Positions 7,975-61,913 of a stretch of DNA of 64,000 bases are shown here, one piece after another. Position 1 is the first letter of the stretch, and each line of letters opens with the position of its first letter. The notes below the pieces were generated by a model, which did not search any database, was not told the DNA's origin, and saw only the letters and a list, made by a program, of their open reading frames with translations. A program made the position numbers and the translations under genes. This DNA comes from Brienomyrus brachyistius (taxonomy: Eukaryota > Chordata > Actinopteri > Osteoglossiformes > Mormyridae): contig NC_064548.1 in the NCBI RefSeq assembly GCF_023856365.1, positions 14,863,642 to 14,927,641 of the forward strand. The letters are read 5' to 3'.

Positions 7975-8700
7975 TGACAGTGTAAATGTATATAGGTGGA
8001 GTGTATATCTGATAGGATAAATGTATCTAGGTGGAACATATTACTGGTAGCGTAAATGTATTGTATATAGGTGGAGCGTATCTCCGATAGGGTAAATGTA
8101 TATCGGTGGAGCATATTACTGGCAGCGTAAATGTATTGTATATAGGTGGAGCGTATCTCTGATAGGGTAAATGTATATAGGTGGAACATATTACTGGTAG
8201 CGTAAATGTACTGTATATAGGTGGAGCGTATCTCCGATAGGGTAAATGTATATCGGTGGAGCATATTACTGGTAGCGTAAATGTATTGTATATAGGTGGA
8301 GCGTATCTCTGATAGGGTAAATGTATATAGGTGGAACATATGTCTGACAGGGTAAATGTATAAAGGTGGAGCATATATCTGATAGGATAAATGTATCTAG
8401 GTGGAGCATATTACTGGCAGCGTAAATGTACTGTATATAGGTGGAGCGTATCTCTGATAGGGTAAATGTATATAGGTGGAACATATTACTGGTAGCGTAA
8501 ATGTACTGTATATAGGTGGAGCGTATCTCCGATAGGGTAAATGTATATCGGTGGAGCATATTACTGGCAGCGTAAATGTACTGTATATAGGTGGAGCATA
8601 TATCTGATAGGATAAATGTATCTAGGTGGAGCATATTACTGGCAGCGTAAATGTACTGTATATAGGTGGAGCGTATCTCTGACATGGTACTGTAAATGTA
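7975..8700. repeat. Minisatellite, about 35-40 bp units
   Basis: About twenty units share GTAAATGTA, then TATAGGTGGA, then CATATTACTGG or CGTATCTCTGATAG, often alternating to give a higher-order period near 70 bp. Some units carry an extra TTGTA or CTGTA. The long minus-strand frames through it come from the repeat and are not genes. Confidence 0.9.
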
Positions 8701-10094: not shown

Positions 10095-11804
10095 GAAAGA
10101 GCTCTAAAGTCACGCAGGATACTAACCTCACTGCATACTCACAAAATCCAGTTTCCACAATGCAAGATGGTAACTAATGTTTTTTTTATAACATCAACGT
10201 TTCTTGAGTGTCGATGTTATATTTACAGTTGAGCTCCATTTGCAGAAGGAATATGAGGAGGTGGTCCACATACCCACCGTTTTCGTAGAGTATTAATAGG
10301 ATAAAGTTAGTTGTTTTTGCATCTACGTGGGTGTTTTGCAGAGATAAGATGAAATGTGAGTCTGACAGATAAGAGATTTATCCATACCTGTGAAGGTTTC
10401 AATGTGGCATTATTGCCAATAAATGGGAAGTGTAGTGTTTTCATCTTAATTTACACGTTCAGGGTCAACATGGTGTAATAAGTCCATTGAAATATGTTAA
10501 CTGTATATTTTTATGTATTATTTTATTACTTGATTGCATATTACATTAAACATTACAGGATGTCAAAACTATATTATCTTAATCAGGTATCTCTGCTACT
10601 TTCTGTTATCACCCAGCATTTACAGAATACAGAAGTGAGTACTTTGGCTTAAATAGCAGCGTTACTCTGAACTGCTCCAATAAGACATTGGCTTCGATTC
10701 TCTTCATTACCTGGACGATAGACATTGACGGAAAGCAGTGTCAAATGGCTCATAGTGATAACGATTCTAAACATGATACATGTAAAGATGGAAAGATCCT
10801 GCGCAACAACACAAATGGAGAAACATACCTGTACATTCCTCACTTTACAAAACGAGATGAAGGACGGTATCAGTGTGAGACTGTGTTCAACGGTGGATCC
10901 AGTAAAGTAGTAATAAATGTATCTGCCAAAGGTAAGAAAATATATACATTTATGCATCAAAGTAACTATGGGGTAGCAATCCTTGTTTTTTTTTTTTATC
11001 AATTTGATTAATCAAATGTCATATTTGAATATATGTTCATAATCGTGATAATGGGTATTTCTGCAGTCCCTCTACAGATTTCCACCAGACTGGACCTTGA
11101 CCACAGAGAAGCTGTGTGTTCAGCTGCAGGGGTTAAATCAAACGTCTCCATCTCATGGAGAACTGCGTGGGACACCACTGTAACCAGCAGCTCTGTACCC
11201 AACCCAGATGGCTCCTACACCACGGAGAGCCGACTCAAACTGCCCGACCATGTGCATGGTACCGAGCTGCACTGCATAGTGACACACCCCAGCTGGACAG
11301 AGAATTACACAGAGACACTTCAACTCCCTAGTATGTGTTACATTTATAGAAATGTGGACTTAGTTAGTGGACTTAGTGGACTCATCAAACACTTCATTAT
11401 TTTAATGGGGGCCTGGCTGTCTTTTAATGCTTACAGATGCTTTTCTTTTCCAGATCCATTAAAAGGCAGAACCATTGAAGCCTGGCAGTGGATAATTATA
11501 TTTCTGGATTTATGTTGCTTTTCAGTGGGTATTATTATTGGACTTTATATTATATGGGAACATCTCAGCAAGATCAGGTATGAAAGTCTATCAAATTTTG
11601 TTATGAGCATCAAAAAGCAATAGCTTACCTCAATCTGATGATTATGTTTGGAGAAAAAGAGGACCAGGTGCTATTGTGCTTTAACTGCATTATCTCTGTA
11701 CCAGCAGAAGCTGCTGCAACTCCAGGACATCAGCTACCCCCCCCACCCACCCCACTCCGTCAGACCCCAAAACGTTGGTAAAGGTGTGTAAAGGCCGGCA
11801 GTAG
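10095..11804 (+). CDS. cd200r1: R2: CD200 receptor-like protein with V and C domains, leader exon not found
   Basis: Exons 10095-10169 (stalk), 10626-10931 (V), 11067-11330 (C), 11454-11577 (transmembrane) and 11705-11804 (tail) join in phases 1, 1, 1 and 2. The V exon has the Cys of LNCSN, the core Trp in FITW, the extra pair in KQC and DTC, and DEGRYQC. The C exon has REAVCS, ISWR and LHCIV, matching the CD200R plan of a V then a C domain. The transmembrane exon reads WQWIIIFLDLCC onward and ends LSKIR. The tail is Pro- and Ser-rich (for example TPPTHPTPSD) and lacks tyrosine, so the signalling motif known from mammalian CD200R1 is absent. No leader like that of R3 is seen between 6350 and 10095. 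The first exon could join the R1 exons in phase. Polyadenylation signals lie at about 11949 and 12067. The symbol marks the family, not proven orthology. Confidence 0.75.
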
Positions 11805-19370: not shown

Positions 19371-21628
19371 ATGTGGACGTTTATTTCCATTCTGATTATA
19401 CCTGTCACCTTCTGTCACCTGACAAAAGGTTTGTTTGTTTTTATTGTCATTGTCATTTTACTGGTTTATCAAAAGAGCCTGTTCAAAATTATTTACATTC
19501 AAGTGTGTGAATTTCATGTGTATGGTTGTGCAAGTTATTTAAAAATGGGCTTGTAATTTTTTTTCATATTTTCAACATCTGAGAAGAACAGAATTACTGT
19601 ATGGCAGCAAAAGCACCTGCAGCAATGAAGCAAATTAATGTACTTAATATAGACACAGGGGTATCGCGTCATAAAACACAGTAAACTGTTTTACTATTTT
19701 TAAATTGCCTTTCAACTAACAAAATATTTAATTCTCGTAGGTGAAAGCCAGAAAGCCTTGCGTTGTACTAGTGAAAAAGCTAGTACAGATTCCGCGACGC
19801 AAGATGGTAACTAATATTTTTTATAATGACATTAATGTCTGTTGTGCTTTCTAAGTGACGATGTTAGCAATAAACTCACTAACCTAGAATAGAGTTCCGT
19901 TTGTATTATGCGACCAACATATCCTCCAGTTCCATTCATACTTAAGGATGTTTCCACGTGACACCGCTGTAATCAAAAAGGAAGGGGAAGTGTAGCTCCA
20001 AAAATGCATGTATACAAACACATCCAGAATGGAATATATAATATGCAAGAATACCACCATAGACATCGATTTGCTCAACATATTATCTATGTATTCATTA
20101 TTTACACTTTTGAGTCACTTAGAAATTTTCTTGTTTCCAAAAGAAAAGTGATTATTTTTTTGTCCATTAAAATAACATCAGGTTAATTGGAAATTGTTAG
20201 ACATTTATAATGTTGTAAACGACAACTGTAGCTGGAAACAGCATTATCTGCAAACAGCAGCCTTGTGTTCCGGTGGCACGTTGTGTTTGCTAATCCGAGT
20301 TTATCATTTTAAAAGCCAAATTTGATCATTAGAAATCCATTCTACGTCATACTGAAAACTGTTAAGATTGTTAAAGAAGCAATAAAACTGGCCTTCTTTA
20401 GATTAGTTGTTTACCTGGAACATCAGCAATTGTGAGTTCAATTAAAGTCGCAAAATGGCTAGAAACGAAAAATGTTCTACTGAAAACCATCAGTCTGTTC
20501 TTTTTCTGAGACATGACGCCTATTCCTTGGGCAAAGCGTTCCCAAGCTTTTGCACGGTAGTGTATATTACATTTTATTAAAGCAGTATAATTACCAAAAT
20601 AACATGATCTTATGTATGTGTCCTTTGCTACTTTTTCTGTTATCACCCAGCATTTACAGAATACAGAAGTGAGTACTTTGACTTGAATAGCAGCGTTACT
20701 CTGAACTGCTCCAATAAGACATGGGCTTCGATTCTCTTCATTACCTGGATGATAGACATTGACGGAAAGCAGTGTCAAATGGCTCATAGTGATAACGATT
20801 CTAAACATGACACATGTAACGATGGAAAGATCCTGCGCAACAACGCAAACGGAGAAACATACCTGTACATTCCTCACTTTACAAAACGAGATGAAGGACG
20901 GTATCAGTGTGAGACAGTGTACAACGGTGGATCCAGTAAAGTAGTAATAAATGTATCTGCCAAAGGTAAGAAAAAATGTAAGTACATTTATGCATCAAAG
21001 TAATCTTAACTATGGGGTAGCAATCCCTGTTTATTACAATCAATTTGATTAATTAAAACAACAGTTCCTTAGTTGAACAGAATATCAAATGTCATTTGAA
21101 TATATGTTCATAATCGTGATAATGGGTATTTCTGCAGTCCCTCAACAGATAATGTCACACCCCAGCTGGACAGAGAATTATACAGACACACTTCAGCTCC
21201 CCAGTATGTTACATTTATAGAAATGTGGCCTTTAAGTTTCAGTTTCATCAGAAACATGCATGATTCTTTTAGTGCTGGCCAGACTATCTTACAATGATTT
21301 TCTTTTCCAGGCAGAAGAAACTTCAATGTCTGGCAGTGGATAATTATTTATCTCACCCTAATCTGCTTTTTAATGGGCATTTTTGTTGGACTTTATGTCT
21401 TAAGAAACCATCTCAGCAAGATAAGGTATGAAAGTCCATCAAATTTTTATTATGAAAATCAAAAGGAATATTCAAAATAATTTCTTAATGTGATGATTAT
21501 GGTTGAAGAAAAAAAATCACCAGTTGCAAATGTGTTTTTATCTGCATGATCTCTTTCCCCCCAGAAATTGCTGCAAGTTTGGCACGTCAGCTGCCCCCCC
21601 ACTCCGCCAACCACAAAAACGTTGGTGA
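19371..21628 (+). CDS. R3: CD200 receptor-like protein, V domain with C domain deleted
   Basis: Exons 19371-19428 (leader, starts MWTFISILIIPV), 19741-19806 (stalk), 20660-20965 (V), 21138-21203 (C remnant), 21311-21425 (transmembrane) and 21565-21628 (tail) join in phases 1, 1, 1, 1 and 2 to 224 residues. The V exon is nearly identical to that of R2, with LNCSN, FITW, KQC, DTC and DEGRYQC. The C exon is 66 nt instead of 264: it keeps the first five residues and the last seventeen (SHPSWTENYTDT and on). The loss of 198 nt is exactly in frame and keeps both splice sites. The membrane segment reads WQWIIIYLTLICF and ends LSKIR. The tail (starts NCCKFGT) has no tyrosine. The frame is open throughout, so I call it a gene and not a pseudogene. 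A signal at 22139-22144 (AATAAA) may end it. Confidence 0.72.
20398..20580 (-). mobile_element. Tc1-like end fragment in R3 intron
   Basis: The stretch AAGCTTTTGCACGGTAGTGTA resembles a Tc1-type terminal sequence, and the preceding bases look like the edge of a decayed transposase. It lies just upstream of the V exon. Confidence 0.45.
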
Positions 21629-26584: not shown

Positions 26585-27437
26585 TACGTAATGGTTTTTC
26601 CACGGTGAGTAATCGGCGATCAACAAAATCAATAAACCGACAGTTTTAACGAGCAGACTAGAGATCAGACTAGAGATAGGGTCATTGTCCATTTGGAAGA
26701 CCCATTTGCGCCCAAGCTTTAACTTCCTGGCTGATGTCTTGAGATGCTGCTTCAATATTTCAACATACGTTCAACATGTTCTTTCTTCTTTCTTCTCCTG
26801 CAGCAAAACACCCCTACAACATGATGCTGCCACCTCCGTACTTCACAGTTGGGATGGTGTTCTCAGGCTTGAAGGCTTCCCCCTTTTGACTCCAAATATG
26901 ACGATGGTCATTATGGCCAAACAGCTCGATTTTTGTTTCGTCAGACCACAGGACATGTCTCCAGAAATTAGGGTCTTTGTCTCTGTGTGTATTTGCAAAG
27001 TGTAATCTGGCTTTTTTATGTCGCTTTTGGAGTAATGGCTTTTTCCTCGCTGAGTAGCCTTTCAGCGCATGTCGGTACAGGACTCGTTTCACTGTGGATA
27101 GTGATACACTCTTACCAGCTTCAGCCAGCATCCTCACAAGGTCTTTTGCTTTTGTTCTGGGATTGATACGCACATTCCGCACCAAAATACGTTCATCTCT
27201 TGGACTCAGGAGCCGTCTCCTTCCTGAGCGGTATGATGGCTGGACATTCCCATGAAAGGGTTTTGTATGATTTAATGTCAGACAGTAAGAAAAAAAAGTT
27301 ATATGTCTTTTTATACAGTGTATGTAAATTTTCGGTTTCAACTGTATACGTAATGGTTTTTCCAGTACACTCCGATGACTAATCGGCGATCAACAAAATC
27401 AATAAACCGAAAGTTTTAACGAGCAGACTAGAGATCC
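26585..27437. repeat. Direct duplication flanking a Tc1 fragment upstream of L1
   Basis: The segment at about 26585-26665 (TACGTAATGGTTTTTCCA ... GAGCAGACTAGAGATC) recurs at about 27347-27437. The second copy leads into the L1 first exon at 27477. The two copies bracket a Tc1 remnant. Confidence 0.75.
26680..27345 (-). mobile_element. Tc1-like transposase fragment
   Basis: The minus-strand frame 26814-27341 contains the paired-type DNA-binding region (PRTKAKDLVRML, STVKRVLYRH) and then HVLWSDETKIELFG, the first catalytic block of Tc1 transposases. The C-terminal catalytic part is missing, so it is inactive. It has no relation to the IgSF genes. Confidence 0.85.
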
Positions 27438-35970: not shown

Positions 35971-38269
35971 ATGTATTTTATGTTTACCTTCGTGAATTTC
36001 ATGTTTTCGCTCCCTTGGATTTCTCATGGTAAGTAATCTGTCCTTCAAAAATGTATGAGTAGTTCAAACGTCACTTTGGCAACGTCTGTGAAACATTTTG
36101 TGAATAAAAGGGTAAAATGGTCATTTAAAACTTTTTAATAGCATACAAAATTTTACTTGTATGATATAAAATTGTTGTGTTTATATTGTTACGGGGTAAA
36201 TTCATGGGCGCGGTGGCGGTGGTGTGTGTGTGTGTGTGGGGGGCTGTAGCTCTGACAATGTCGGCAGCTTGCGTCTCAACTGTAACTTTAAATGGAAAAC
36301 GGAAGACAGAGAAGTGCTGCAAAAACTGAAATTGCCTTAGAGCCCCTATGGTGTAACATTTACAGTTGGCAGCTGCCCTATTTAGAAACATCTTCCCCTG
36401 CATATGTGTACATTGTGAATTAACCTGCCTGCTCATATCAGTCATTTATTCAGCTACTGCACATGCTCATATGATTTTATATGATCATACTTTATGACGG
36501 TCTTTCCCACTTCTGCTTCAGGCTTGACAGAATTAGTGAGAACTCAGCAGGATGTGATGGCGTCCCTTGGGGAAGATGTTAATTTGACATGTGAGCTTAC
36601 ACAACAGAAAAATGTGAAACAAGTGACCTGGCAAAGAGTGTCGGAGCAGACAAGTGAAATCATGGCAACGTACAGTGAACGTTTTGGTGCGACTGTCAGT
36701 TGGCTCTTCCGAAAAAATGTCAATTTTTTAAAAATAGGGCTGCAGCATTGTTCCATAGTCATTAGGAGAGTCCAGTGGAGTGATGAGTCGTGCTACAAGT
36801 GTCTGTTTAATGTCTTTCCTGATGGAGCTATCAGTGGGAGGACCTGCCTCAAAATCTACGGTAAAGTCACACTTATCTGCACATTCAAAAAAAGACACCA
36901 GTAATTTTCTTGTTATTTCTAAAATTGAAATGGAAACAGGCAACATTTTGAGTTGTTAAACAACAAATAACAAGACTCTTCTGCTCTTTCAGAACTGCAC
37001 AAGCCTATATTTGTAGTGAAACCTGTCAGTGGTGAGAGTAAATTATTGCTTACCTGCTCTGCCACTGGAAAGCCGGCACCAGAGTTGTCCTGGGATATTG
37101 AAGATACTGCTCCGGAACATTCCACAACATATTGTACCGATAATCAAAATGGAACTATAACCGTTACTAAAACTGCTACAGTTCAAATAACCCCGACACT
37201 TCTTGCAAATACAACGCAAATCAAATGTGCAGCACAGCAAGAATTTGGAGAACAGAAGGAAAACTTCATAACAATCCCAAACGGTTAGACAACTGTTGAC
37301 CTTTTGAATGAATGCCTCATGTATCATCCTTATGGCTATAATGTAACACTTTATTTTTTTTGTTTAAGATGAAATGCTATCAAATAAAGCACGTGCAGAC
37401 ATCTGGCCTGTGGTCCCTCGTAAGCACAGTCGTATCATATCCTTAATGCTGGATGACAATTGTGTATTTTTTGCTGGGTGGCATGGTGGTGCAGTCGTTA
37501 ATGCTGCTGTCTTACAACAAGAAGGTTCTGGGTTCAATCCACGGTTCTTTCTGTGTAGTGTTTGCATGCTCTCCCTGTGGTCCTCTGAATTATTGCCAGG
37601 GGCTCTGGTTTCTTTCTACAGTCCTAAAGCATGCTGGGCAGGTTGTTCCTGGGTTGGACTCTGGGCCCCCCCCTGCAACCCTGGTAGGGATTAAGCAGTT
37701 ATGATAATGGATGTATATTTTGACATGGTTTTTATACTTGGCCATATTTCTCCTCAGTTGTCCTTGTAATCCTTTGTGTGATGGGATTCGGTTTCTACAG
37801 GTATCTACACAGGAAAATACACAACAGGTAGATATGAACAGGTCTTTAGTATCGTCTATAGTTCTGGAGATGTCAGAGATAATTCCTGTTACCTATGTCT
37901 GGCTTAAACGAGTATACTGTATAATTGAATCATTTCAAGAGAATTGTCACATTTTCAGTGTAATACATGTTATCACCTGTACATTTATAGGCTTGCTTTT
38001 CTAATGTCTTGTTTTCTTTGCAGGAAACAAAATGCTTCTTGTGGGTCAACATTGCAAGCGCAGAAGTATGTTCCATTGCTTGGGATTACAGAACATCGGC
38101 TGCAAACCGTTTACTCAGGATTTTGCATGTTCATATTCATTTATCATTCTCAAACTATTAATAACATAGATGGACAGTGTGTCATCTATCTTCTTCACTT
38201 AGCAGCTCAGGAAAGTCTTCTCCATTAAGTGAAGACTGTGAGCTGTTTGGCTACACTAATTGTTCTTAA
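35971..38269 (+). CDS. L2: CD200-like membrane glycoprotein, short-tail form
   Basis: Exons 35971-36028, 36522-36860, 36993-37283, 37369-37419, 37758-37827, 38024-38065 and 38203-38269 join in phases 1, 1, 1, 1, 2 and 2 to 305 residues. The leader starts MYFMFTFVNFMFSL. The V exon (LTCELTQQ, VTWQRVSEQTSEIM, ESCYKCLFN, GRTCLK) and C exon (LTCSATGKPAP, LSWD, IKCAAQ) are CD200-type and close to L1 and L3. The membrane exon reads VLVILCVMGFGF and ends HRKIHNR. The last two exons encode KQNASCGSTLQAQ and a terminal piece ending ELFGYTNCS. The membrane exon has a second in-phase donor at 37800/37801 that would remove nine basic residues. A long form would skip 38024-38269 and join the microexons at 38955-44348. 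The third intron-stalk region holds a SINE at 37473. Confidence 0.82.
37473..37710 (+). mobile_element. Old SINE copy in an L2 intron
   Basis: The head GGCATGGTGGTGCAGTCGTT and box B-like GGTTCAATCC place it in the same tRNA-derived family, but it is much more diverged and lacks a clean (GGAT)n tail. Confidence 0.6.
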
Positions 38270-38954: not shown

Positions 38955-41900
38955 CGCACCAGATTCTTGTCAGGATCAAGTTGGGTGAGGCCTTATTATT
39001 TTCTGCAAATCATGCTTAAATACACAAACTGCACTGAAGTGACCTTTAAGGAAATGAAATTTGAATTTAGCGGATATATAGAATATTTTCATGGGAGTGG
39101 TGATGGAGATTACAAAACAAGTACAGGACACTGACAATGACATTCTGACTAGAAAAAAATAGGGGTGTCAGTGCTTGTAAAGGACTAGCAAATGATTTGA
39201 GATCTGGGTGTGTGTTCTGTGGTACATCATTAATAATAAAGTACAGGTAAAGTCAATAAAAGTGCCTGTCACATGACTACACCCAGCTACGCAACATCCA
39301 TGCCTCCCTCATGTCTTAGGTTTCATTTAATATTCCAGTACATGTGTGTTATTACCTTTCAGATTGCTTGATGGAGCTTTAGTAAGGAGAAGTCAATCAC
39401 GGTAAGTCTTCATTTTTTCCATAATTGTTATCGCACTTTTAAATAATTGTGAGTGTAGATGTGTGTGTATATGTGTGTGAAATGTCCCCATAATGTGATA
39501 AAAACCTGTTATTTTGCTGACATGTGGACTGTGTTCCTCAGTCCCTACAAGGGGAAACTCAATTTTATAAAAATCTGTGACTGTAATCAAAAACTTAAAA
39601 ATGTCAAGTCTTCTTTACTTAAGGTTAGGGCTTGGTAGGGGATAAGGTTGTCATTGCTGGGATTAGGGTTTTTCCCATAAAAATGACTGAATGGTCCTCA
39701 CAAACGTGTGTGTGTGAGTGTGTGTTTTTTTTGTTGTCAATTTTGTGTGGTAAGAGACAACAGCGACAGCACAGTACTAATGACTCTCTATCTACATTGT
39801 TTTCAGGTCTTTTTCTATGCAAATCACGTAAGGCTTTAATTTGAAATCATCTGTGAAAATGTCCTTTTATAAAAGCCTTTGCTGTTTTCCATACTTTAGA
39901 GCTTATGGACATTGAAAGTTAAGTTTATATCGTTTGAGGTCAGAAATCTAGGAATGATAATTTCATTGCAGTTAAAATTTTCAATTTATTTATATTTTTA
40001 TGTAGTGTACAGCTTGTGATACTTTGTTAAACAAAACTATTAAATGTAACTCTTAAGGTGACACACATTTGAGAATTAGAGAGTGTCAAGGACTCAAGGC
40101 TTATTTGTCACAGACAAGATATACAGTCCAACTATGGCCTGCATTGAAATGCAAGGTGGTCAGCTCTGATATATTAAGAACTAGTGAAAAGCAATAAGAC
40201 CTAATGTACCAGTAAATAAATGTATAACAAATAAGGAACAGTAACGGAAAACTAGGTATGTGCAACGTTGCTCCATTAAAGTGCATGGTGCATGAAAAAG
40301 GAGCAAATCTTTAATTGCAGCTGTTAAGCAGGTTGATGCTTTGAAGGTAGAAGCTCCTTCCAAGGCTCTTGGGTCTCAGTGAGAGACACCAGAAGCACTT
40401 TCCATACCTCAGCCTGGTAAAGTAGTAGGAGGTAGTTGTTTGGAGGCTTCTGTCCCTGCTGATTTTGGCAGCTCGGCTAATGCGTCGCCTGAGGCATGTA
40501 TCCTGTAGGGGGGGGGGGGGGGGGCTCAGCCTTGCTGTACCTCCCTCTGCAGAGCTTTGCTGTCCAGGGCAGAGCAGTTACCAAACCAGGCTGTGATGCT
40601 GGTGGTGAGGATACATTTTGACACGGAAGAGTAGAGGGCTTTGAGAATGGCTAGAGAGAATGGCCTGGAACCTTCATAGCTGCCTAAGATGGTACAGCCA
40701 ATGCCTGGCTGTAGATTTCTGAGTCTGTGCATGATTAGACCAGGTGAGGTCCTCAGAGACCTAGACCAGATATATGCCAGATATCTAAATGTATTCCCCA
40801 CTCAACTGGGACCCCATTGATGTTCAGAGGGTTGTGTGCATTGAACTGCTTATGCCTAAAGTCCACCATGATCTCTTTAGTATTAGAGGTGTTGAGTGAG
40901 AGTGAGAGATTGTCTACCTCATCCAGGTAGGCCTTCCTGTAGTTATTGAAGATCAGGCCAATTACTACTGTGTCACCTACAAGTTTGATTATTTAAGCTA
41001 TGTTTGGCCACACGGTCATGCACGCACAAAGAGTACAGCAGCAGGCTCAGAACACAACCTTGTAGGGCACCAGTATTGAGGGTGATGGGAGCCAAAGCGA
41101 TCCCACCTCTACTACCTGAGGTCCGCCTATGAGAACTTCTAGGAACCAATCACAAATGAGTGCTTTCAGACCCACGTTCTACCCTATTCTAATTTCACTT
41201 TTGTCTGCTTGGCTAAAGAATGCAGTCAGTTCCTGGATTTCTCCAACTTGAGAAACTGGGGATAGATATTATAAAACAATTTGGGAGGAGCAAGTACAAG
41301 ACGCGCATTCAGATGTCTAGACTAGGAAGACAGTGGGGGGTGTCAGTGCTTGGAAAGTGCTAGAAGATCATGTGGGGTCAAACATCGGGGTCTGGGTGCG
41401 TGTTGTAACGTGGAAATACAACCTAGTTACATATGATTAATAATGACGTGCAGCTGAAGTTAAGGAAAAGTGTTTTTCAATTGACTGCCCTTATCCAGTC
41501 TTAGGTCTCGTTTCATATTCCAAACTACGTTTCATTACCTTTCAGATTGCCGGATGGTTCTTCAGTAAAGAAAAGGCAAGGACGGTATGCCTTTTTTTTC
41601 CCCACAATTGTCATTCGTTGAAAGGTCTTGAAGATGGTGTGGAGTCAGGCATCAGGGTCTGGGTGTGTGTTCTTATAAGGAGATAGAGCAGAACCCAGTT
41701 TTATATGATTAATTATAATGGGCAGCAGAAGTCAATGAAAGTTTTTGTCGCCTGACTTCACCCAGCTATGTAAGATCCATGCCACTGTCATGCAGCCTTA
41801 GGTATCATTTGATATTGTAATATGTGCATTTTATTACCTTTCAGATTCAAGGATGGTTCTAAAGTAAAAAGAAGACACACACTGTATGTTTTTTTTCTCA

Positions 41901-44348
41901 CAATAGTTATTGTCAAAATTTATAGAATTTATATAAAAGTGCATGTGTTTATTAAGTCTATTGCAAACCGATTGTTTTCTTTAAAATTAAAAAATATTTA
42001 CCCACTTAAATATGTCTAAAAATAAGAGTGATGCCACAATGGCGAGTGAAAAAAAGGAAAGTGATTAGACATTAAACTTGACAATATTTAAATGTGGTCA
42101 GAGTAAAAGTAACATTAGAAGAGAGCTTTAACGAGTCAACAGTACGGACCATTCCCTACAAGAGAATGTTATGTAAGAGTATTATATACCCATAGGTTAT
42201 GTATGCTTCATTATATTGAAATCAATCAATAGTGAAGCAGTTGTCATTTTTATGATTGATTAAATTTGATTAACGTGGCTTCGATTAACCTGGTGACATC
42301 TGGGGATTGATTAATTGCGTTAATCAAGAGAAGCCTATATACACTGTCATAGGTACAGCACAGTACTAATGCTCTTTATAAATATTCTTTCTTTTCAGCC
42401 TACCTAGTCCTACTCAAAACACGTAAGGCTTTAACTTGAAATGCTTTCTTTGAAGACGCCCTTCTTAAACGAAGTGACATCATTTAGTTTTGTGAAAATT
42501 TTGCATTCATTGTTTTCCATATTTTAGAACTTCTGACATTCCAGACAATGAAAGGTAAGTACTTATTTCTTGTTGTCGGGCCAAAAAGCATCCAATTGCA
42601 AATTAATTTGAGTTCTGTGAACGCTTTTAGATATTTGCATTCAAAATGACTTATGAAATGTTTGTGGTGTAAGCATATATTGGACTTTATTATTTGTAAC
42701 CCACAGAAAACAATCCACAAATATGTACCATGATCCACAAATATATCACTCTCCACAAATATGTATTTTTATTTGTGCTGTGTAAAATCATATCCACAAA
42801 AATACAGAGCAATTTGTACAAGTGAAATGGGTATTGCATATTTGTGGAGCATGTCACATTTGGGCCTTTGCTCCTATTTGTGGATTTTTGTCCACCAGCT
42901 GAAAAAATCCACATGTGAGGTGAAGTTAACCAGCAGGGGGGCGTGGCGCACATGAGGGCTGGACGCGCAGTCATGACACTCCATCACAATGCTGCGTGAA
43001 CCACGCAGGCAACGTAATTTTTGAACTGCTGTAGGTGAAGTGCATCTGTGCGATTCGCGAGTTGCACATACTCCATCGTGCTGATACTGAATGCTGTAGC
43101 ACTCTCACAAACACATACGCACACAAAAGACGCTATTAATAACACATTTGAATTATGAATGCACTTGACCCACAGACATTTTCAACTGCTAATGTTTTTT
43201 TTTATTATTATTATTCAGGTCAATAGTTAGCTTCAAATTTTATTTTTTGCTGTAAAAAAATGATCAAGGTCCAGACCTCGGTGACCTCATAGCTGGCTAT
43301 GGCCCTGATCTTAACCCTTGACCATTTATGAATTCTGTTTCAGCTCACAAGATTTTCCAGTGCAAGAAAGGTAAGGCTTTATCTTCATGTTTCCTGTAAA
43401 TCATGCCTGATTACATGAATAGCACTCAAGTGACCTCTCTGAAGGTGATATTTGACAGTATGAAATTTAGGTGTGTGGAATATTTTCACGGGAGTGCAGA
43501 TAGATATTACAAAACAATTTGGGAGGAACAAGTACAAGACGCCTATTCAGATGTTCTTATAAGGAGATAGAACAGAACCCAGTTTAATATGACTAATTAT
43601 AATGTGCAGCCAAAGTCAATGAAAAGTGCTTGTCAACCGACTGTACCCTGCTGTGTAACATCCATGTCACCCTCATCCAGTCTTAGGTCTAATATTCAAA
43701 TATATCTATTTTATTGCCTTTCAGACCAAAGAGGAGACACACAATGTATGTTTTTCCCCACACAATCATCATTGTTCCTTTAATTTGATATATTTTCCAT
43801 TAATACATTCAATATAAATTATCTTTTGTACAGTACAGTATTAATACTCATAAATATTCTTACTTTTCAGCGGACCTTCTCTTACTCAAAACACGTAAGG
43901 CTTTAACTTGAAATGTTTCCTTTAAATATGCCTTTTTTTAAATCAAAGTGGTATCATTAAAAGTTTTGTGTTTTGTGTAATTTTGCATTTGTTGTTTTAC
44001 ATGTTTTAGAAATTTTGAAGGAGAAAAGGTAAGTCCAACTTCATTGTTACAAGAATGACAAATTTAGTTTGGCCTCTGTATGGCACATATTGTTTTGAAT
44101 GTATAAGACTTTAAATTAATTGGTAATGCATAAAAATCACATCTGTTTTATGGATGATAATGACAATACTGCATGGTGTTATATTGGGGATTGATCACTA
44201 TGATATCAGTATATTTGTCATTTAATAATTATGTGCATATATTAATTTAGCCTCCTTACCTTTCCTTCCTTTTAAGATTCTTAATGCACTTTTTTATGGC
44301 AGCAATGAAAGCAGAGATCACGTCAACGACAAAACACAAAAACTTTAA
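38955..44348 (+). CDS. Array of in-phase tail microexons downstream of L2
   Basis: Twelve exon-like segments have AG acceptors and GT donors: 38955-38984 (APDSCQDQVG), 39363-39401 (LLDGALVRRSQS), 39807-39827 (SFSMQI), 41546-41584 (LPDGSSVKKRQG), 41845-41883 (FKDGSKVKRRHT), 42399-42422 (LPSPTQN), 42528-42554 (TSDIPDNE), 43344-43370 (SQDFPVQE), 43725-43745 (PKRRHT), 43871-43894 (GPSLTQN), 44010-44028 (NFEGEK) and terminal 44277-44348 (starts ILNALFYGS, stop 44346). All but the last two enter and leave in phase 2; 44010-44028 leaves in phase 0, which is the only phase giving a short closed frame in the terminal exon. Joined to the L2 membrane exon they give 396 residues. They fall into families also found in the L3 array. 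A further copy at 39900-39918 has lost its donor and carries a stop. Use in transcripts is inference. Confidence 0.55.
40085..41180 (-). mobile_element. LINE fragment inside the L2 tail array
   Basis: Minus-strand frames contain GALQGCVLSLLLYSLCVHD at about 41010-41070 (the reverse-transcriptase block CVLSPLLYSL) and ITAWFGNCSALDSKALQR at about 40540-40600, the usual C-terminal block. A poly-G run lies at 40507-40524. It separates the 39807 and 41546 microexons. Confidence 0.8.
42680..42975. repeat. Unclassified repeat rich in CCACAAATAT
   Basis: The word CCACAAATAT and near forms occur five or more times between 42713 and 42900, on both strands. No gene is seen. Confidence 0.5.
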
Positions 44349-45076
44349 CTACATAAAATCATCAAGACAATTTTTTTTAATGTGTTGTGTTCTCTTATTG
44401 TGTTGCGGTATCGTGCCTCTGACACCGATATCTAAGGTAGCTGATTAGTGTCGACGCACTACAAATTCAGAAAAGTTACCGACGTGTAGGTTTTAGATTT
44501 AAAAGATCTTCACCCTATGTTTTGAGAGCAGTGTCATAAACGGACATTTGAGTAAATCGCTTTTGTCGTGGCCGCTTTATTTAACCCATGCAACAGATAT
44601 AGCCATACATTGATTTTTGTTTTTATTTTCAGATGTTTGGAATACATAAAATATCTATACTGAATAGTATAGATATAGTATAGTAATAGTATTTTTTGCA
44701 AAGTTACTGGCCTACGCAATGAATATTGATGAGATCGGTGTCACCACCCCAATAAGAGTTTGCATACCCCAATAAGAGTTTGCATACCGTCAATGCTCCA
44801 TCAGTCTGGAATGTCATTGTCACTGCGTCTGATGTAAATGTATTAATATTATCATTATAGGAAGCATACCCATAAATTGAGAAATTAGTGAGAATAAAAA
44901 TGCTGCTGTGGTCTCGATTTTTTTCCAGAGCTATGTATTGTTTTGTATTATTAAGAATATGAATTTATTGTTTTGTATTATTCAAATAATATAATGTGAT
45001 TGCACTTTTTTCCATCACCATTTAATACATTGCATGTTATAACGACATATATACTAAAGCACGCTTCACTTAAATT
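44349..45076. other. Intergenic between L2 array and L3
   Basis: It holds a short direct repeat (CCCAATAAGAGTTTGCATAC twice near 44748-44787) and AT-rich sequence. No gene is seen. Confidence 0.45.
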
Positions 45077-45196: not shown

Positions 45197-48100
45197 ATGG
45201 ATTTTATGAATGCTTCATCCATTTTCGGGTTTTTACTCCTCATGATTTCTCTTCGCGGTAAGTAATCGGTGACTTTAAAATTTATCAGTAATTTAAAATT
45301 CTTAATACCGTTTAACACCCGTCTACCTTGCGCAAGAATGAGCTCGTATGGTTTTATGTATTCACGTTTTCTTTTTAGGTTCCGCAGAATTAGTGAGAAC
45401 AGAGCACCTTGTGAAGGCTTATTTTGGTGCAGATGTTAACTTGAAATGTGAGCTTACAAAATACAAGAATGTGAAACAAGTTACCTGGCAGAGAGTGTCG
45501 GAGCCGACGAGCGAAAACATGGCAACGTACAGTGAACGTTTTGGTTCGAAAATCACCGAGTCCTTCAGAAAAAATGTCAGTTTCGTGGAAACGGGGCTGC
45601 AACAGTGTTCTATTGTCATTAAGGGAGTCCAGTGGAGTGATGAATTGTGCTACGATTGTCTGTTTAATGTCTTTCCTGATGGAGCTATCAGTGGGAGGAC
45701 CTGCCTCAAAATCTACGGTAAAGTCACTTTGATTTATAATATCAAAATGATCAAAAAGGGGGCGGCATGGTGGTGCAGTAGTTAGCACTGTTGCCTCACA
45801 CCTCTGGGACCCAGGTTCGAGTCTCCGCCTGGGTCACATGTGTGTGGAGTTTGCATGTTCTCCCCATGTCGTCGTGGGGTTTTCTCCAGGTACTCCGGTT
45901 TCCCCCCACAAAAACATACTGAGGCTAATTGGAGTTATTAAATTGCCCATAGGTGTGCATGTGTGAGTGAATGGTGTGTGAGTGTGCCCTGCAATGGGCT
46001 GGCCCCCCGTCCTGGGTTGTTCCCTGCCTCATGCCCATTGCCTCCGGGATAGGCTCCGGACCCCCCGCGACCCAGTAGGATAAGCGGTTTGGAAAACGGA
46101 TGGATGGAAAATGATCAAAAAGAATACCGAATTACCCAGTAATTTTCCCATTCTTTTTCAGTTTGATTTGCACACTTCTGAAAAGTGATGAAACGCTGAC
46201 GCAAGCGAGATAACTGTCTTTCTGCTCTTTCAGAAATTCACAATCCTGTATTTAAAATAAAACCCGTCAGTGGTGAGGGGATATTATACCTTTCCTGCTC
46301 TGTCACTGGAAAACCTGCACCAGAGTTATTCTGGAATATTGACGATACTACGCTACAAAATTCTACAACATTCTACACGAAAAATCCTAATGGAACTATA
46401 ACCGTTACTAAAACTGCTACAGTTCAAATAACCCCCACACTTCTTGCAAATACAACGGAAATCAAATGTGCAGCAAAGCAAGAATTTGGAAAACAGAAGG
46501 AATCTTTCGCTACAATCCCAAATGGTGAGACAGCTGATCACCTTATAATACATAATTAATTTTACTAATTAATCCATAATTAACCTTATGGATACACTGT
46601 AACATTTTTTTTCTTTTTTTTTGGAAGACATGCCATCAGACACAAAACAAACAGACTTGTACGCTGTCCTTGGTAAGCATAGTCAGTCTTCATACTTCAT
46701 GATGTATGGTAATTGTGTATTTCTCACACATGTATTTGTCATTTGGCTTTTATATGTGGTTGTATTTGGTTTTTTATACTTGATTGTATATTTTCTCATC
46801 TGCAGTCATTGGAGGCCTTTGTCTTTGCGGAGGCCTTTGTATTTGTGGAGGCCTTTGTATTCGTGGAGGCCTTTATGCTTTTTTGAAACTCTCTCTAAGG
46901 AAGGAAAACAAGCACAGCAGGTAAACATGAACCAACAGCTGTTTTTTTTATTGTCTATAGAGCCAAACATGTCAGGATGAATTCCTCTTTAGTGTTTTCC
47001 CTAGGTTAGTGGTTCTTAAACTCGGTCCTCGTGACCCAAGCTGTAAACCTAGGGCAGGGATAGCTGGAAAACAGGCAGGGCAGTGGGGCCTGAGGACTGA
47101 GTTTGATAATCACTGCCCTAGGTTTACAGCTTTTTTTTTTTTTGGGGGGGGGGGGGCAGACTGACACCAACTGGATTTATGGTGTTCGTGTGTTTCTTTT
47201 AATGACAGCAGTCAATATAACAGTTCAACAAATACATTTCTTTTTATGACAATTATCCACACAGTGTGCAGGTAGAACATTTCTAGAGCCTCTTATATGG
47301 GAAGTCAGAAACGTCTGGCCCATTTATTGAGATCCGCATGCAGGCTGCAAGATGGTCTCCTTGCAGCCTATTGCAGATGTTTGTCTCGACCTGCAAATAC
47401 ATTAACTGTTAGGCTTTAAAAGTGATAGCTGATAGCTTAAAATAGTGATAGTTTAAAGTAGAAAATCCCATTGTGAAACATATTTATTACCCTGTTCATT
47501 TTTGTCTGCTTTTCAGGTGGTTGATGCAACATATTTCCCAACGCGCGCTCTGTCCGCTGTTGGGAGTGTGTTCACCTGTGTGTGCGCGCATGTATCTGTG
47601 CATATTAAAGTGGAACTCTGCCACGTGTGATACAGAGAGCAGAGGGGAATTGTAAACGCGCGACCATGTAGAGACAAAAATGACAAGCTGTTGCGTATAA
47701 CATGAGTCTATTTAGCTTGTTTAATAAAAGGACAATATATATATATATATAAATGACTTCTGTTGTGATCTGGCGCTATATAGAAAATAAAATTAACTTG
47801 ACCTTCAAGGGGGGGCGGGACACCACCCTATTATAATGATAGGGGAAACACTGCTCTTACCTTTGTCTGTTTAAAAATGGGTGCACTCTACATTTAATTC
47901 AGTACCTTCGAGAGTGTGGTTATTTTTTTCAGTCTAACATTTATGTTACAACCTTTTCCCCTATATTTGTATTTCTGGGGGAAAATAATGTCTTCTTCAG
48001 TAAGGAAAGCACAATATGTCCTAATTTTTTTACAGTTCTCATGTGTAACTCATGTAGTTGTTTAACAGTGACATCATTCAGCCAGTGACAAGGTTTAACC

Positions 48101-49741
48101 ATAAGTTCTAACCTGTAGATCCACATGCTACTCCAAGTTCTTGTTTAAAACTAACAGCAATTTAGGAGGGTGATACTGTTAATGTACATGCATTTCAGGT
48201 ATAAATGGAAAAACCAATTACTGAACTTAATGATATGCTTCAGATAATAGATGTGCTGGCTGCTCTCACTCTAACTGCATCTTCATTCAGGTGTCAGGTT
48301 TTCTGCACAGTGATGCATGTAAAATAAATCCTACTTTACACATCAGTTTTGCATATTTCACTGTATTTCCAGTTTTCCAATAGTGTAAACTGTCAGTGGG
48401 ATCTCGTGTGGAGTGGGAGACCCACACTGCCTCTTAATCACTTGGTATAAGGTGTCAGGGGTATGGTGACGTGCAGAAAGAGCTTTCAGAAGGTTCATCC
48501 TTTGATAGGCTTGAGGCTGCTTGTCTGAGCTCTGCAGTGAGCTCCTGCATTCCTCCATCTTGTGTTTACACTCTCCAGTGTTTAAATTGAACACATTTAG
48601 TATCCATCTATGTTATGAATTGTAAAGAACCATATGGATGGTTAGTAATATGACCTATTATGAATTCCTTTTCAGCACACCGAACTGTTCTCCAGTGAAA
48701 TCTGCGTAAGGCTTTAACTTAACGTTTCCTGTAAATCATATTTAATAACATGAATAGTGCTGAATCTTACAAAGCTGAGATTTTACAGTAAGAATTTACC
48801 CAATATACAGTATATTTCCAAAAGAATGGAGGTGTATATTTCAGAAAGTTTGATATCGGAGGAACAAGGACAAGATGTTAAAACTAGGAAGACAGTGGGG
48901 GGTGTCAGTGCTTGGAAAGGGCTAGAAGATCATGTGGGGTGAAGCATCAGGCACTGGGTGCGTGTTCTGATGTGGAGATGGAACAGAACCTAATTTTACA
49001 TGATTAGTAATAACATGCAGCTGAAGTCAGTGAAAGGCTTTTTGCCCCCTGACTGCATGCAGCTGTATAACATCAGTGCCACCCTCTTCCACTCTTAGGT
49101 CTCATTCAATATTCCAATCTACATGTTTTATTACCTTTCAGAATACTGATGTGTTCTTCCCTGAAGAAAAGACAAATACAGTAGGTGTCACTGTAGCTTT
49201 GATAATGTATAAATATATGCATTCCGTAATTACTCTGTATGTTAGGGGTGGGAATTTCTAGATTGCTGATTCCATACATATTCCGATTTCATGTTTTTTG
49301 CTGAAGAGTAGTTCATGTCAACATTTATTGTAAAGACAAGTGCTGTAATGGTACAAATATTCAGAAGGTTCATCCTTTGATAGGCTAGAGGCTGCTTGTC
49401 TGAGCTCTGCAGTGAGCTCCTGCATTCCTCCATCTTGGAATCTGGAATTCAGGCGCAGCTATGAGACTCTGATTCTAACTGAAGCTGTAACCTGTTGAAC
49501 TGCCAAGCTCTTAACCTATGCATTTTAAATGATCTTTTATCACTTTCTTTTCAGCACAACAGATACTCATAAAGTGTCAATCAGGTATGGCGTTCACTGC
49601 TGAAAGTTACAACTCATTTAGAATGCTAAGGAGAGTAACATCATCCTATTTTCCATTAGCTACACACCAAAGTCTTTTCCATTAAATGAAGACTTTGAAA
49701 TGTTTGCCTGCACGTTTTTGTCCTGCTGCTGCCTTCTGTAA
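45197..49741 (+). CDS. L3: CD200-like membrane glycoprotein with one tail unit
   Basis: Exons 45197-45257, 45379-45717, 46234-46524, 46628-46672, 46806-46920, 48676-48705, 49142-49180, 49555-49584 and 49660-49741 join in phases 1, 1, 1, 1, 2, 2, 2 and 2 to 343 residues. The leader starts MDFMNASSIFGFLLL. The V exon has KCELTKY, VTWQRVSEPTSENM, ELCYDCLFN and GRTCLK; the C exon has LSCSVTGKPAP, LFWN and IKCAAK. The membrane exon is unusual: four six-residue Gly-Gly-Leu blocks from an 18-bp tandem repeat. The tail comes from microexons TPNCSPVKS, LMCSSLKKRQI and TTDTHKVSI, then a terminal exon starting YTPKSFPLNEDF. An AATAAA lies at 49748-49753. Further copies of the same tail set follow, so the true 3' end may lie further on. 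The V and C domains are certain; the tail path is inferred from splice sites and phase. Confidence 0.78.
45759..46107 (+). mobile_element. SINE copy, full length, in L3 intron
   Basis: Plus orientation, with tRNA-like head and (GGAT)n tail. The 15-bp duplication AAAATGATCAAAAAG is exact (45744-45758 and 46108-46122), so the insertion is young. It starts 41 bp after the V exon donor. Confidence 0.9.
46811..46882 (+). repeat. 18-bp tandem repeat inside the L3 transmembrane exon
   Basis: Four consecutive 18-bp units each start GGAGGCCTTT and encode GGLCLC, GGLCIC, GGLCIR and GGLYAF. The homologous exons of L1 and L2 have no such repeat, so it arose after the genes split. It keeps the frame and fills the membrane segment. 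Confidence 0.85.
47517..47655 (+). CDS. Possible alternative terminal exon of L3
   Basis: After a good TTTTCAG acceptor, the phase-2 frame from the L3 membrane exon stays open for 46 codons (starts WLMQHISQRAL) to a stop at 47653-47655, with AATAAA at 47723-47728. The sequence has no match in L1 or L2 and looks repeat-derived. It may be an exonised element or chance. Confidence 0.25.
48329..48475. repeat. Second copy of the 16930 dispersed repeat
   Basis: It shares TTTCCAGTTTTCCAAT and TATAAGGTGTCAGGGGTAT with 16930-17045. It lies directly before the L3 tandem array. Confidence 0.6.
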
Positions 49742-52700
49742 GATGCAAATAAAGTTCAGTAGGAAACGAGCCGATGCCTCTCAGTGTTTTATCATGCAAT
49801 CAGTTTCAAATACTGATTGCATGTAAGAGAATAATCTATGTTTCCATTCGGGCTAACTGCAAAAAGATAAAGGCCGCAACTTAATTTTTCCCCAAAATTT
49901 TGTGATTATTAGTAAACCTTTCAAAACAGTGTTTAAATTGAACACATTCAGTATCCATCTATGTTATGAATTGTAAAGAACCATATGGATGGTTAGTAAT
50001 ATGACCTATTATGAATTCCTTTTCAGCACACCGAACTGTTCTCCAGTGAAATCTGGGTAAGGCTTTAACTTAACGTTTCCTGTAAATCATATTTAATAAC
50101 ATGAATAGTGCTGAATCTTACAAAGCTGAGATTTTACAGTAAGAATTTACCCAATATACAGTATATTTCCAAAAGAATGGAGGTGTATATTTCAGAAGGT
50201 TTGATATCGGAGGAACAAGGACCAGACGTTAAAACTAGGAAGACAGTGGGGGGTGTCAGTGCTTGGAAAGGGCTAGAAGGTCATGTGGGGTGAAGCATCA
50301 GGCACTGGGTGCGTGTTCTGATGTGGAGACGGAACGGAACCTAATTTTACATGATTAGTAATAACATGCAGCTGAAGTCAGTGAAAGGCTTTTTGCCCCC
50401 TGACTGCATGCAGCTGTACAACATCAGTGCCACCCTCTTCCACTCTTAGGTCTCATTCAATATTCCAATCTACATGTTTTATTACCTTTCAGATTACTGA
50501 TGTGTTCTTCCCTGAAGAAAAGACAAATACAGTAGGTGTCACTGTAGCTTTGATAATGTATAAATATATGCATTCCGTAATTACTCTGTATGTTAGGGGT
50601 GGGAATTTCTAGATTGCTGATTCCATACATATTCCGATTTCATGTTTTTTGCTGAAGAGTAGTTCATGTCAACATTTATTGTAAAGACAAGTGCTGTAAT
50701 GGTACAAATATTCAGAAGGTTCATCCTTTGATAGGCTAGAGGCTGCTTGTCTGAGCTCTGCAGTGAGCTCCTGCATTCCTCCATCTTGGAATCTGGAATT
50801 CAGGCGCAGCTATGAGACTCTGATTCTAACTGAAGCTGTAACCTGTTGAACTGCCAAGCTCTTAACCTATGCATTTTAAATGATCTTTTATCACTTTCTT
50901 TTCAGCACAACAGATACTCATAAAGTGTCAATCAGGTATGGCGTTCACTGCTGAAAGTTACAACTCATTTAGAATGCTAAGGAGAGTAACATCATCCTAT
51001 TTTCCATTAGCTACACACCAAAGTCTTTTCCATTAAATGAAGACTTTGAAATGTTTGCCTGCACGTTTTTGTCCTGCTGCTGCCTTCTGTAAGATGCAAA
51101 TAAAGTTCAGTAGGAAACGAGCCGATGCCTCTCAGTGTTTTATCATGCAATCAGTTTCAAATACTGATTGCATGTAAGAGAATAATCTATGTTTCCATTC
51201 GGGCTAACTGCAAAAAGATAAAGGCCGCAACTTAATTTTTCCCCAAAATTTTGTGATTATTAGTAAACCTTTCAAAACAGTGTTTAAATTGAACACATTC
51301 AGTATCCATCTATGTTATGAATTGTAAAGAACCATATGGATGGTTAGTAATATGACCTATTATGAATTCCTTTTCAGCACACCGAACTGTTCTCCAGTGA
51401 AATCTGGGTAAGGCTTTAACTTAACGTTTCCTGTAAATCATATTTAATAACATGAATAGTGCTGAATCTTACAAAGCTGAGATTTTACAGTAAGAATTTA
51501 CCCAATATACAGTATATTTCCAAAAGAATGGAGGTGTATATTTCAGAAGGTTTGATATCGGAGGAACAAGGACCAGACGTTAAAACTAGGAAGACAGTGG
51601 GGGGTGTCAGTGCTTGGAAAGGGCTAGAAGGTCATGTGGGGTGAAGCATCAGGCACTGGGTGCGTGTTCTGATGTGGAGACGGAACGGAACCTAATTTTA
51701 CATGATTAGTAATAACATGCAGCTGAAGTCAGTGAAAGGCTTTTTGCCCCCTGACTGCATGCAGCTGTACAACATCAGTGCCACCCTCTTCCACTCTTAG
51801 GTCTCATTCAATATTCCAATCTACATGTTTTATTACCTTTCAGATTACTGATGTGTTCTTCCCTGAAGAAAAGACAAATACAGTAGGTGTCACTGTAGCT
51901 TTGATAATGTATAAATATATGCATTCCGTAATTACTCTGTATGTTAGGGGTGGGAATTTCTAGATTGCTGATTCCATACATATTCTGATTTCATGTTTTT
52001 TACTGAAGAGTAGTTCATGTCAACATTTATTGTAAAGACAAGGGCTGTAATGGTACAAATATTCAGAAGGTTCATCCTTTGATAGGCTTGAGGCTGCTTG
52101 TCTGAGCTCTGCAGTGAGCTCCTGCATTCCTCCATCTTGGAATCTGGAATTCAGGCGCAGCTATGAGACTCTGATTCTAACTGAAACTGTAACCTGTTGA
52201 ACTGCCAAGCTCTTAACCTATGCATTTTAAATGATCTTTTATCACTTTCTTTTCAGCACAACAGATACTCATAAAGTGTCAATCAGGTATGGCGTTTACT
52301 GCTGAAAGTTACAACTCATTCAGAATGCTAAGGAGAGTAACATCATCCTGTTTTCCATTAGCTGCACACCAAAGTCTTTTCCATTAAATGAAGACTTTGA
52401 AATGTTTGCCTGCACGCTTTTTGTCCTGCTGCCTTCTGTAAGATGCAAATAAAGTTCAGTAGGAAACAAGCAGATGCCTCTCAGTGTTTTATCATGCAAT
52501 CAGTTTCAAATACAGTAAGAGAATAATCTATGTTTCCATTCGGGCTAACTGCAAAAAGATAAAGACCACAGCTTAATTTCTCCCCAGAATTTTGTGATTA
52601 TTAGTAAACGTTTCAAAACAGTGTTTAAATTGAACACATTCAGTATCCATCTATGTTATGAATTGTAAAGAACCATATGGATGGTTAGTAATATGACCTA

Positions 52701-53240
52701 TTATGAATTCCTTTTCAGCACACCGAACTGTTCTCCAGTGAAATCTGTGTAAGGCTTTAACTTAACGTTTCCTCTAAATCATATTTAATAACATGAATAG
52801 TGCTGAATCTTACAAAGCTGTGATTTTACAGTAAGAATTTACCCAATATACAGTGTATTTCCAAAAGAATGGAGGTGTATATTTCAGAAAGTTTGATATC
52901 AGAGGAACAAGGACCAGACGTTAAAACTAGGAAGACAGTGGGGGGTGTCAGTGCTTGGAAAGGGCTAGAAGATCATGTGGGGTGAAGCATCAGGCACTGG
53001 GTGCGTGTTCTGATGTGGAGACGGAACAGAACCTAATTTTACATGATTAGTAATAACATGCAGCTGAAGTCAGTGAAAGGCTTTTTGCCCCCTGACTGCA
53101 TGCAGCTGTATAACATCAGTGCCACCCTCTTCCACTCTTAGGTCTCATTCAATATTCCAATCTACATGTTTTATTACCTTTCAGATTACTGATGTGTTCT
53201 TCCCTGAAGAAAAGACAAATACAGTAGGTGTCTTCATTGT
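48489..53240 (+). repeat. Tandem array of tail-exon units after L3
   Basis: Periods between equivalent points are 1351, 1351 and 1341 bp. Unit 1 spans about 48575-49926, unit 2 to 51276 and unit 3 to 52618; unit 4 is partial and diverges after 53224; a fragment of an earlier unit lies at 48489-48562. Units 1-3 differ at roughly one position in a hundred. Each full unit has a 30-nt exon (48676, 50027, 51378; also 52719), a 39-nt exon (49142, 50493, 51844; also 53185), a 30-nt exon (49555, 50906, 52257) and a terminal exon (49660, 51011, 52362) followed by AATAAA. In unit 3 the terminal exon has Cys for the first Tyr and a shifted frame that ends at 52452. Near identity means either recent unequal crossing-over or gene conversion, or possible assembly error. 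Confidence 0.9.
49748..49753 (+). terminator. Polyadenylation signal of tail unit 1, repeated in units 2 and 3
   Basis: AATAAA seven bases after the unit 1 stop. Equivalent signals lie at 51099-51104 (unit 2) and about 52448-52453 (unit 3, where it overlaps the stop). Confidence 0.6.
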
Positions 53241-54628: not shown

Positions 54629-54957
54629 TTCTTGTGAACATCCAAAGGTGAAAAAGTAAGTTCATCTTTCTTATTTCAAGGATGAAACACATCTACTACT
54701 ATAGGAAAATAAAGTTTGGTTCTGGGACAGTGTCTGGATATCTGAATTCCAATTGGCTTATAAAATATTGGTTGTCCATGCACATGTGTATAATAAATAC
54801 TGTTGATTTTAATTAATTTTAAAAGCATTAAAAAAAAATCACATTTTCAGTTTGAAAATGGCAAGTTGTGAAACTGGTTTTTTTTTATCACTTTGGCATC
54901 AGTGTCGTTTCTTCTGCTAGGAGCCTGGACTTCAGTGAACAGAAGCATTTATTATGA
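54629..54957 (+). CDS. Distal tail exons of L3
   Basis: Exon 54629-54655 (27 nt, SCEHPKVK) lies between TTTTTAG and GTAAGT, is phase 2 to 2, and is homologous to the L2 array exon at 42528. A candidate terminal exon at 54921-54957 (after CTTCTGCTAG) continues as SLDFSEQKHLL and stops. With unit 4 exons 52719-52748 and 53185-53223 they would give a complete in-frame tail. The first exon is well supported by homology, the terminal one only weakly. Confidence 0.4.

Positions 54958-58272: not shown

Positions 58273-61913
<3,641 letters not shown>

Follow-up and report, generated by a model that had tools for sequence, protein, structure and literature searches.

A tandem array of candidate microexons and terminal exons downstream of a CD200-like gene in the mormyrid fish Brienomyrus brachyistius

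The cytoplasmic tail of mammalian CD200 (OX-2) is short and simple. The closest precedent for the locus described here is provided by the chicken BG genes of the butyrophilin family, which encode Ig-type membrane proteins and assemble the tail from a varying number of small exons. In two papers on these genes (PMC5938342, PMC4046983), the BG tail is described as encoded by many 21-nt exons and a few of 18 or 24 nt, in which the first codon is split and whose number differs between genes (13–36 small tail exons per gene in one haplotype). The same papers report alternative splicing, or early stops via intron read-through, and their authors mention the number of cytoplasmic exons in BG1 as implicated in resistance (PMC4046983, PMC5938342). 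Searches of the literature gave, among the matches listed and as far as their available parts go, none on the subject of fish CD200 tails or CD200 microexons, and nothing useful on tandem terminal exons or micro-exon genes.

Three CD200-like genes in the window

The window analysed is a stretch of 64,000 nucleotides of contig NC_064548.1. Three adjoining CD200-like genes are found on its + strand: L1, L2 (36–44 kb) and L3 (45.2–55 kb). The exons of L1 extend from 30.8 to about 32.1 kb, and a candidate first exon at 27.5 kb was proposed from similarity to protein P0002 of Paramormyrops kingsleyae. The B. brachyistius protein P0003 corresponds to L1 and gave rows at ≥99% identity for residues 1–122 and 222–299 of 299, its second Ig domain being without a row at this filter.

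The body of L3 comprises five exons (+ strand). Exon 1 (45197..45257, open frame) carries the start codon and a signal-peptide-like stretch; exons 2 (45379..45717) and 3 (46234..46524) have open frames and domain matches to an Ig V-set and a second Ig domain (I-set / C2-set_2), respectively; exon 4 (46628..46672, 45 nt, open frame) encodes the stalk, and exon 5 (46806..46920) the transmembrane segment. Exon 5 leaves phase 2, and its read-through yields KHSR and a stop. The ectodomain matched V-set, I-set and C2-set_2 domains, and its top match in the PDB was OX-2/CD200 (4bfi_B, E 1e-23), with nectin-3 in second place (1.9e-14). The V plus C2-like ectodomain is nearer to CD200 than to nectins/PVR, and as in the CD200 family a single transmembrane segment is followed by Arg and a cytoplasmic tail. 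The best 19-residue mean hydropathy was similar in the three genes (2.38 for L3, 2.35 for L1 and 2.45 for L2), and the dN/dS of the L3 ectodomain against L1 and L2 was 0.39–0.41 for the V and 0.57–0.71 for the C domain. On its predicted protein, L3 is a mormyrid CD200-family (OX-2-like) membrane protein gene.

Two repeats were noted in this part of L3. The transmembrane exon contains an 18-bp tandem repeat (3.6 copies, 46810–46874) that encodes GGLCLC-GGLCIC-GGLCIR and makes the membrane segment odd, that is, Cys/Gly-rich. A dispersed repeat (45758–46108), SINE-like by eye, lies in the intron between the Ig exons and has 85–94% identity, over its whole or partial length, to six further sites in the window.

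Elsewhere in the window, V-domain exons at 10583–11620 and 20608–21000 are alike by eye, the first being followed by a C2-like exon. The top PDB match of the V domain at 10583–11620 was CD200 receptor 1, at a weak E of 0.0043, and the window may contain a cluster of both ligand-like and receptor-like genes. Further Ig gene(s) at 58570–61159 contain two V domains and a C2-like domain just under the Pfam cut-off; in the PDB, the first V domain is matched best by nectins. A single V-set exon is present at 1192–1659. Other features are a transposase fragment at 26817–27389 on the − strand (HTH_Tnp_Tc3_2, E 1.5e-22) and a minisatellite at 7987–8689 (75-bp period, 9.4 copies). Rfam at gathering thresholds gave 0 matches on the window.

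The tandem array 3' of L3

A tandem array of three full units and one partial unit lies 3' of L3. The repeats start at 48576, 49927, 51278 and 52619, and the resulting spacings of 1351, 1351 and 1341 bp bear out the periods given in the sequence-only reading. In each full unit there are three microexons, a (30 nt), b (39 nt) and c (30 nt), which are bounded by AG and GT, open, and all in phase 2 to 2, followed by an exon t that contains a stop and AATAAA; the succession of 30-, 39- and 30-nt exons and a terminal exon, as proposed earlier, is seen in all three full units. On the + strand, unit 1 consists of a1 (48676..48705), b1 (49142..49180), c1 (49555..49584) and t1 (49660..49770, stop 49739–49741, AATAAA 49748), with a c1–t1 intron of 75 nt. 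Unit 2 has a2 (50027..50056) and b2 (50493..50531), both also supported by alignment to L2, c2 (50906..50935) and t2 (51011..51121, stop 51090–51092, AATAAA 51099). Unit 3 has a3 (51378..51407), b3 (51844..51882), c3 (52257..52286) and t3 (52362..52472, stop 52450–52452, AATAAA 52448). The 3' ends of the t exons are approximate; t3 has a shifted 3' reading, in which indels alter the final residues and the stop overlaps AATAAA. Unit 4 contains a4 (52719..52748) and b4 (53185..53223) only, and weaker similarity extends to 53421. The near-identical array has b4 as its final exon. An apparent remnant of a unit preceding unit 1, a 78-bp piece of the b–c intron with 98.7–100% identity, is present at 48485..48562 (+).

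An acceptor, an in-frame stop and a poly(A) signal, the marks of an alternative last exon, accompany 3 of 3 copies of t. Reading t as an internal symmetric exon ending before a downstream GTAAGA was rejected because its length would be 78 nt in t1 and t2 and 76 nt in t3. Beyond the array, a candidate 27-nt exon d (54629..54655, +) resembles the L2 modules d1p, d2p and d3p described below (0/300 shuffles each); its read-through gives SCEHPKVKK and a stop (54657–54659), with AATAAA at 54708. A candidate last exon e after d (54921..54957, +), weakly supported, would encode SLDFSEQKHLL and a stop, with an acceptor in the top 1.9% by the ranking described below.

Since a, b and c are all in phase 2 to 2, any number of them could be added in frame by a transcript. 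Joined in this way, (abc)1–3 plus t reads open, as the earlier reading of 33 residues per unit had predicted, and yields in-frame products of 343, 376 and 412 aa. Each unit adds 33 residues that are Ser/Thr-rich and carry a net positive charge, with KKR in b and in a the site SPVK, which we take to be a proline-directed kinase motif. As a working model, the cytoplasmic tail of L3 would be encoded by symmetric microexons arranged in tandem. At each unit the transcript would either splice into t and end, or skip t and continue, so that the output would be a ladder of (abc)n–t tails and, as the longest form, a tail that terminates at d (or e). Transcription of L3, a choice among the t exons and any role for tail length are inferences. 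The frames, splice signals, stops and poly(A) signals, which are present in all full units, support the ladder, and we give it about an even chance of being correct.

Splice-site strength was scored with a consensus matrix and expressed as a rank among the AG or GT sites of the window. By this measure the acceptor and donor of c are each in the top 1.1%, the other acceptors rank in the top 5.7% (a), 2.4% (b) and 8.5–9.8% (t), and the donors of a2 and a3 in the top 1.9%. The donors of a1 (12.7%), a4 (11.8%) and b (9.6%) are mediocre, as are the t acceptors. When strong symmetric open microexons were sought in a blind scan, three were returned in the L3 tail, a number that was reached in 1 of 200 shuffles, and all three were copies of c. 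A single L3 unit gave one microexon, matched by 9/200 shuffles, and two controls gave 1 (39/200 shuffles) and 0. As only c passed the scan, L3 taken alone is a weak case.

It could also be that only unit 1 works, the transcript running E5-a1-b1-c1-t1 to the first poly(A) site, and that tandem duplication left the later units as by-products. That t1 has its own AATAAA and the short c1–t1 intron is in line with this, as is the near-identity of the units, which leaves little time for separate roles. The later units nevertheless retain open frames and splice signals, an argument that is weak because the differences are so few, and with the evidence from L2 given below we consider the use of unit 1 only to be unlikely.

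The number of units has to be read together with the age of the copies. The segment 49144–50634 is identical to 50495–51985 at an offset of 1351 (0/1491 mismatches), while the other copies differ at 10/568 positions (units 1/2), 9/431 (units 2/3) and 9/608 (units 3/4). The newest duplication is therefore very young, or a unit was copied by the assembler. In the latter case one of the three full units would be assembler-made and the unit number partly an artefact, which is compatible with the other readings of the array. Besides the contrast between 0/1491 mismatches and the 1.5–2.1% among the remaining copies, a suspected error in the B. brachyistius assembly points in this direction: in one paper, the count of the tandemly duplicated kcna7a gene in this species is suspected to reflect such an error (PMC12188244). 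Against it, the left halves of units 1, 2/3 and 4 and the right halves of units 1/2 and 3 bear differences of their own, so that at least two full units plus the partial one remain. We regard an assembler-made unit as possible, if somewhat unlikely. In the ladder model, the number of rungs would be altered by unequal crossing-over in the array, the exact 1351-bp copy being the newest event.

An older, diverged array in L2

The exon classes proposed for L3 recur in the neighbouring gene L2, where they are used by a public gene model. P0005 (B. brachyistius 'poliovirus receptor-like isoform X5'), itself a predicted protein, was reproduced without a single mismatch by joining the L2 exons, starting at the transmembrane exon and ending at the C terminus, and aligned with the L2 region in ten pieces at ≥99% identity. 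The L2 exons had been listed by eye before any homologue was known, and their bounds also preceded P0005, with the exception of two that were fixed only afterwards, the 3' bound of k2 and the point where d3p ends by read-through. Past the transmembrane exon, the tail runs on the + strand through k2 (38024..38065, 42 nt), a1p (38955..38984, 30 nt), b1p (39363..39401, 39 nt), c1p (39807..39827, 21 nt), b2p (41546..41584, 39 nt), b3p (41845..41883, 39 nt), c2p (42399..42422, 24 nt), d2p (42528..42554, 27 nt), a2p (43344..43370, 27 nt), b4p (43725..43745, 21 nt) and c3p (43871..43894, 24 nt). All of these are matched by P0005, and a1p, b1p, b2p, b3p and a2p are also supported by alignment to L3. 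The internal exons (21–42 nt) are in phase 2-2 in 11 of 11 cases; a twelfth, terminal exon, d3p (44010..44058, +), closes the protein by read-through with NFEGEKVSPTSLLQE and a stop.

The blind scan returned seven microexons in the L2 tail (0/200 shuffles), six of which are P0005 exons; one at 39320–39343 is absent from P0005. An exon z at 44633 was rejected as the end of L2 because P0005 terminates via the read-through of d3p. The module d1p (39900–39918) was left out of the exon counts, as it has an in-frame stop, lacks a GT donor and is absent from P0005; with this broken copy, the L2 array seems to lose modules too.

Since the exon classes of L2 are matched by P0005, the exon reading of L3 is much stronger than from L3 alone, and to this extent the earlier assignment of the L3 exons is upheld. 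L2 also contains a single diverged homologue of t with a stop, t' (38203..38269, +), which is not in P0005. The alignment of t and t' scored 115, the best of 300 shuffles reaching 38. The P0005 model bypasses t', after which eleven further exons follow, and this argues against the use of the first unit only in L3.

At the DNA level, when the L3 region was compared with the window by blastn, L2 proved to contain diverged copies of the L3 tail at 68.6–75% identity (E down to 3.5e-48; one 34-bp piece reaches 88%), and none appeared in the region downstream of L1. By alignment, a and b are homologous between L2 and L3 together with their flanks, and hardly any change is seen in the bases directly 5' of these two exons. 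Relative to b1p, b2p and b3p, the b of L3 shows two 1-nt gaps of opposite sign, which leave its length at 39 nt. The homology of c is uneven (16/300, 0/300 and 3/300 shuffles against c1p, c2p and c3p). Of exon k, which opens the L2 tail, L3 has at most a degraded trace, whose flank resembles that of L1 (0/300 shuffles); comparison of the L2 k2 region with its L3 counterpart found nothing (7/300 shuffles). The order of modules is k2, t', a1p, b1p, c1p in L2, and t, a, b, c is repeated in L3. With this shared order and the homology of t and t', of a and b and, less surely, of c, a segment with an alternative end already in it seems to have been amplified in L3: the unit [t-a-b-c] looks like an amplified segment whose single older copy is the t'-a1p-b1p-c1p of L2. 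By eye, the L2 lineage appears to have expanded other modules than L3 did.

Between L2 and L3, conservation is lower in the tail exons than in the sequence flanking them (0.66–0.76 for b and 0.69–0.71 for a, against 0.75–0.80; b4p, at 0.5, is poorly aligned). A whole-unit global alignment (a 0.57, b 0.54, rest 0.58) was discarded because t was misplaced in it. In amino acids a likeness of the L3 and L2 tails is not recognisable (129/500 shuffles reach the score), and no clear purifying selection on the tail modules was seen, with dN/dS values of 0.43–1.58 for pairs of b and 2.1 for the t pair from few sites. The low conservation could reflect disuse, but loose constraint or fast change would explain it equally well.

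These values bear on the possibility that L3 is a dying or silent paralog with a passive array. L3 was absent from the 12 matches found in database proteins of 189–600 aa, where L1 and L2 are found, and an L3-type tail matched no protein at E ≤ 10 among 39 candidates. The degraded k exon, the transmembrane exon altered by the 18-bp repeat, the tail exons conserved less than their flanks and the tail modules without visible purifying selection would all suit a silent gene. On the other hand, exons 1–5 are open and have splice signals, the hydrophobic segment is like those of L1 and L2, the dN/dS of the ectodomain is below 1, and P. kingsleyae has an L3-like protein, P0001 (81% identity over 64% of the query). 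We consider a silent L3 rather unlikely. Residues 243–258 of the 260 of P0001 (16 aa) are 81% identical to a piece of the L3 unit at a weak E of 0.056–0.073, a weak hint that the unit may also lie 3' of the L3 relative in that species.

Comparison with other fish and with known systems

For P. kingsleyae the comparison covered proteins. By eye, P0006 of this species contains the same modules as L2 in a different number, namely a b c followed twice by (a b b c d); by comparison, the order in L2 is a b c, b b c d, a b c d. The shorter tail of P0009 from Scleropages aligned weakly to P0005 and P0006 (0/500 shuffles reach the score in each case), and 12/500 shuffles reached the score of the L3 tail against P0009. 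In sturgeon the OX-2-like protein P0010, compared at the protein level, is likewise CD200-type with a tandem repeat in the tail (56 identities at offset 50 in 171 residues); its tail scored at 9/500 shuffles against L3 and 83/500 against P0009. The sequence-only reading had stated that the tails of known CD200 members are short and simple, which does not extend to L2, two P. kingsleyae proteins and the sturgeon OX-2-like protein, all with long modular or repeated tails. Such tails can already be met in protein databases under names such as 'poliovirus receptor-like' and 'nectin 1a-like'.

If the array is used, the unit number, a structural variant, would be directly tied to the length of a signalling tail and its count of sites in an immune ligand. 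The fullest form of the ladder, in which a stop/poly(A) cassette of variable copy number would determine the tail length of a CD200-family checkpoint ligand and give a counted ladder of 3' ends with a rung number that differs between fish, is rather doubtful at present. With L1 (no array found), L2 (older) and L3 (young), one window offers a natural series for tail growth, and use of the array would suggest, together with chicken BG, more than one origin of microexon-cassette tails among Ig-type immune proteins.

Among the closest known proteins, P0005 as well as P0004 and P0006 (P. kingsleyae) are of the same family with the same exon or module classes, and mammalian CD200/OX-2 shares the two-Ig ectodomain (top PDB match 4bfi_B). 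L2 differs from L3 in having one run of diverged modules and a single t' in place of near-identical [t-a-b-c] units. Many small symmetric tail exons in variable number, as in BG, were found in L2 by the gene model and in L3 by sequence only. The 7-residue heptads of BG are lacking in the mormyrid exons (21, 24, 27, 30, 39 and 42 nt), and the ectodomain is of the CD200 type, V plus C2-like. Overall, the mormyrid tail array resembles BG in design and is not a BG gene; unlike BG, L3 has a terminal exon with a poly(A) signal inside the repeating unit.
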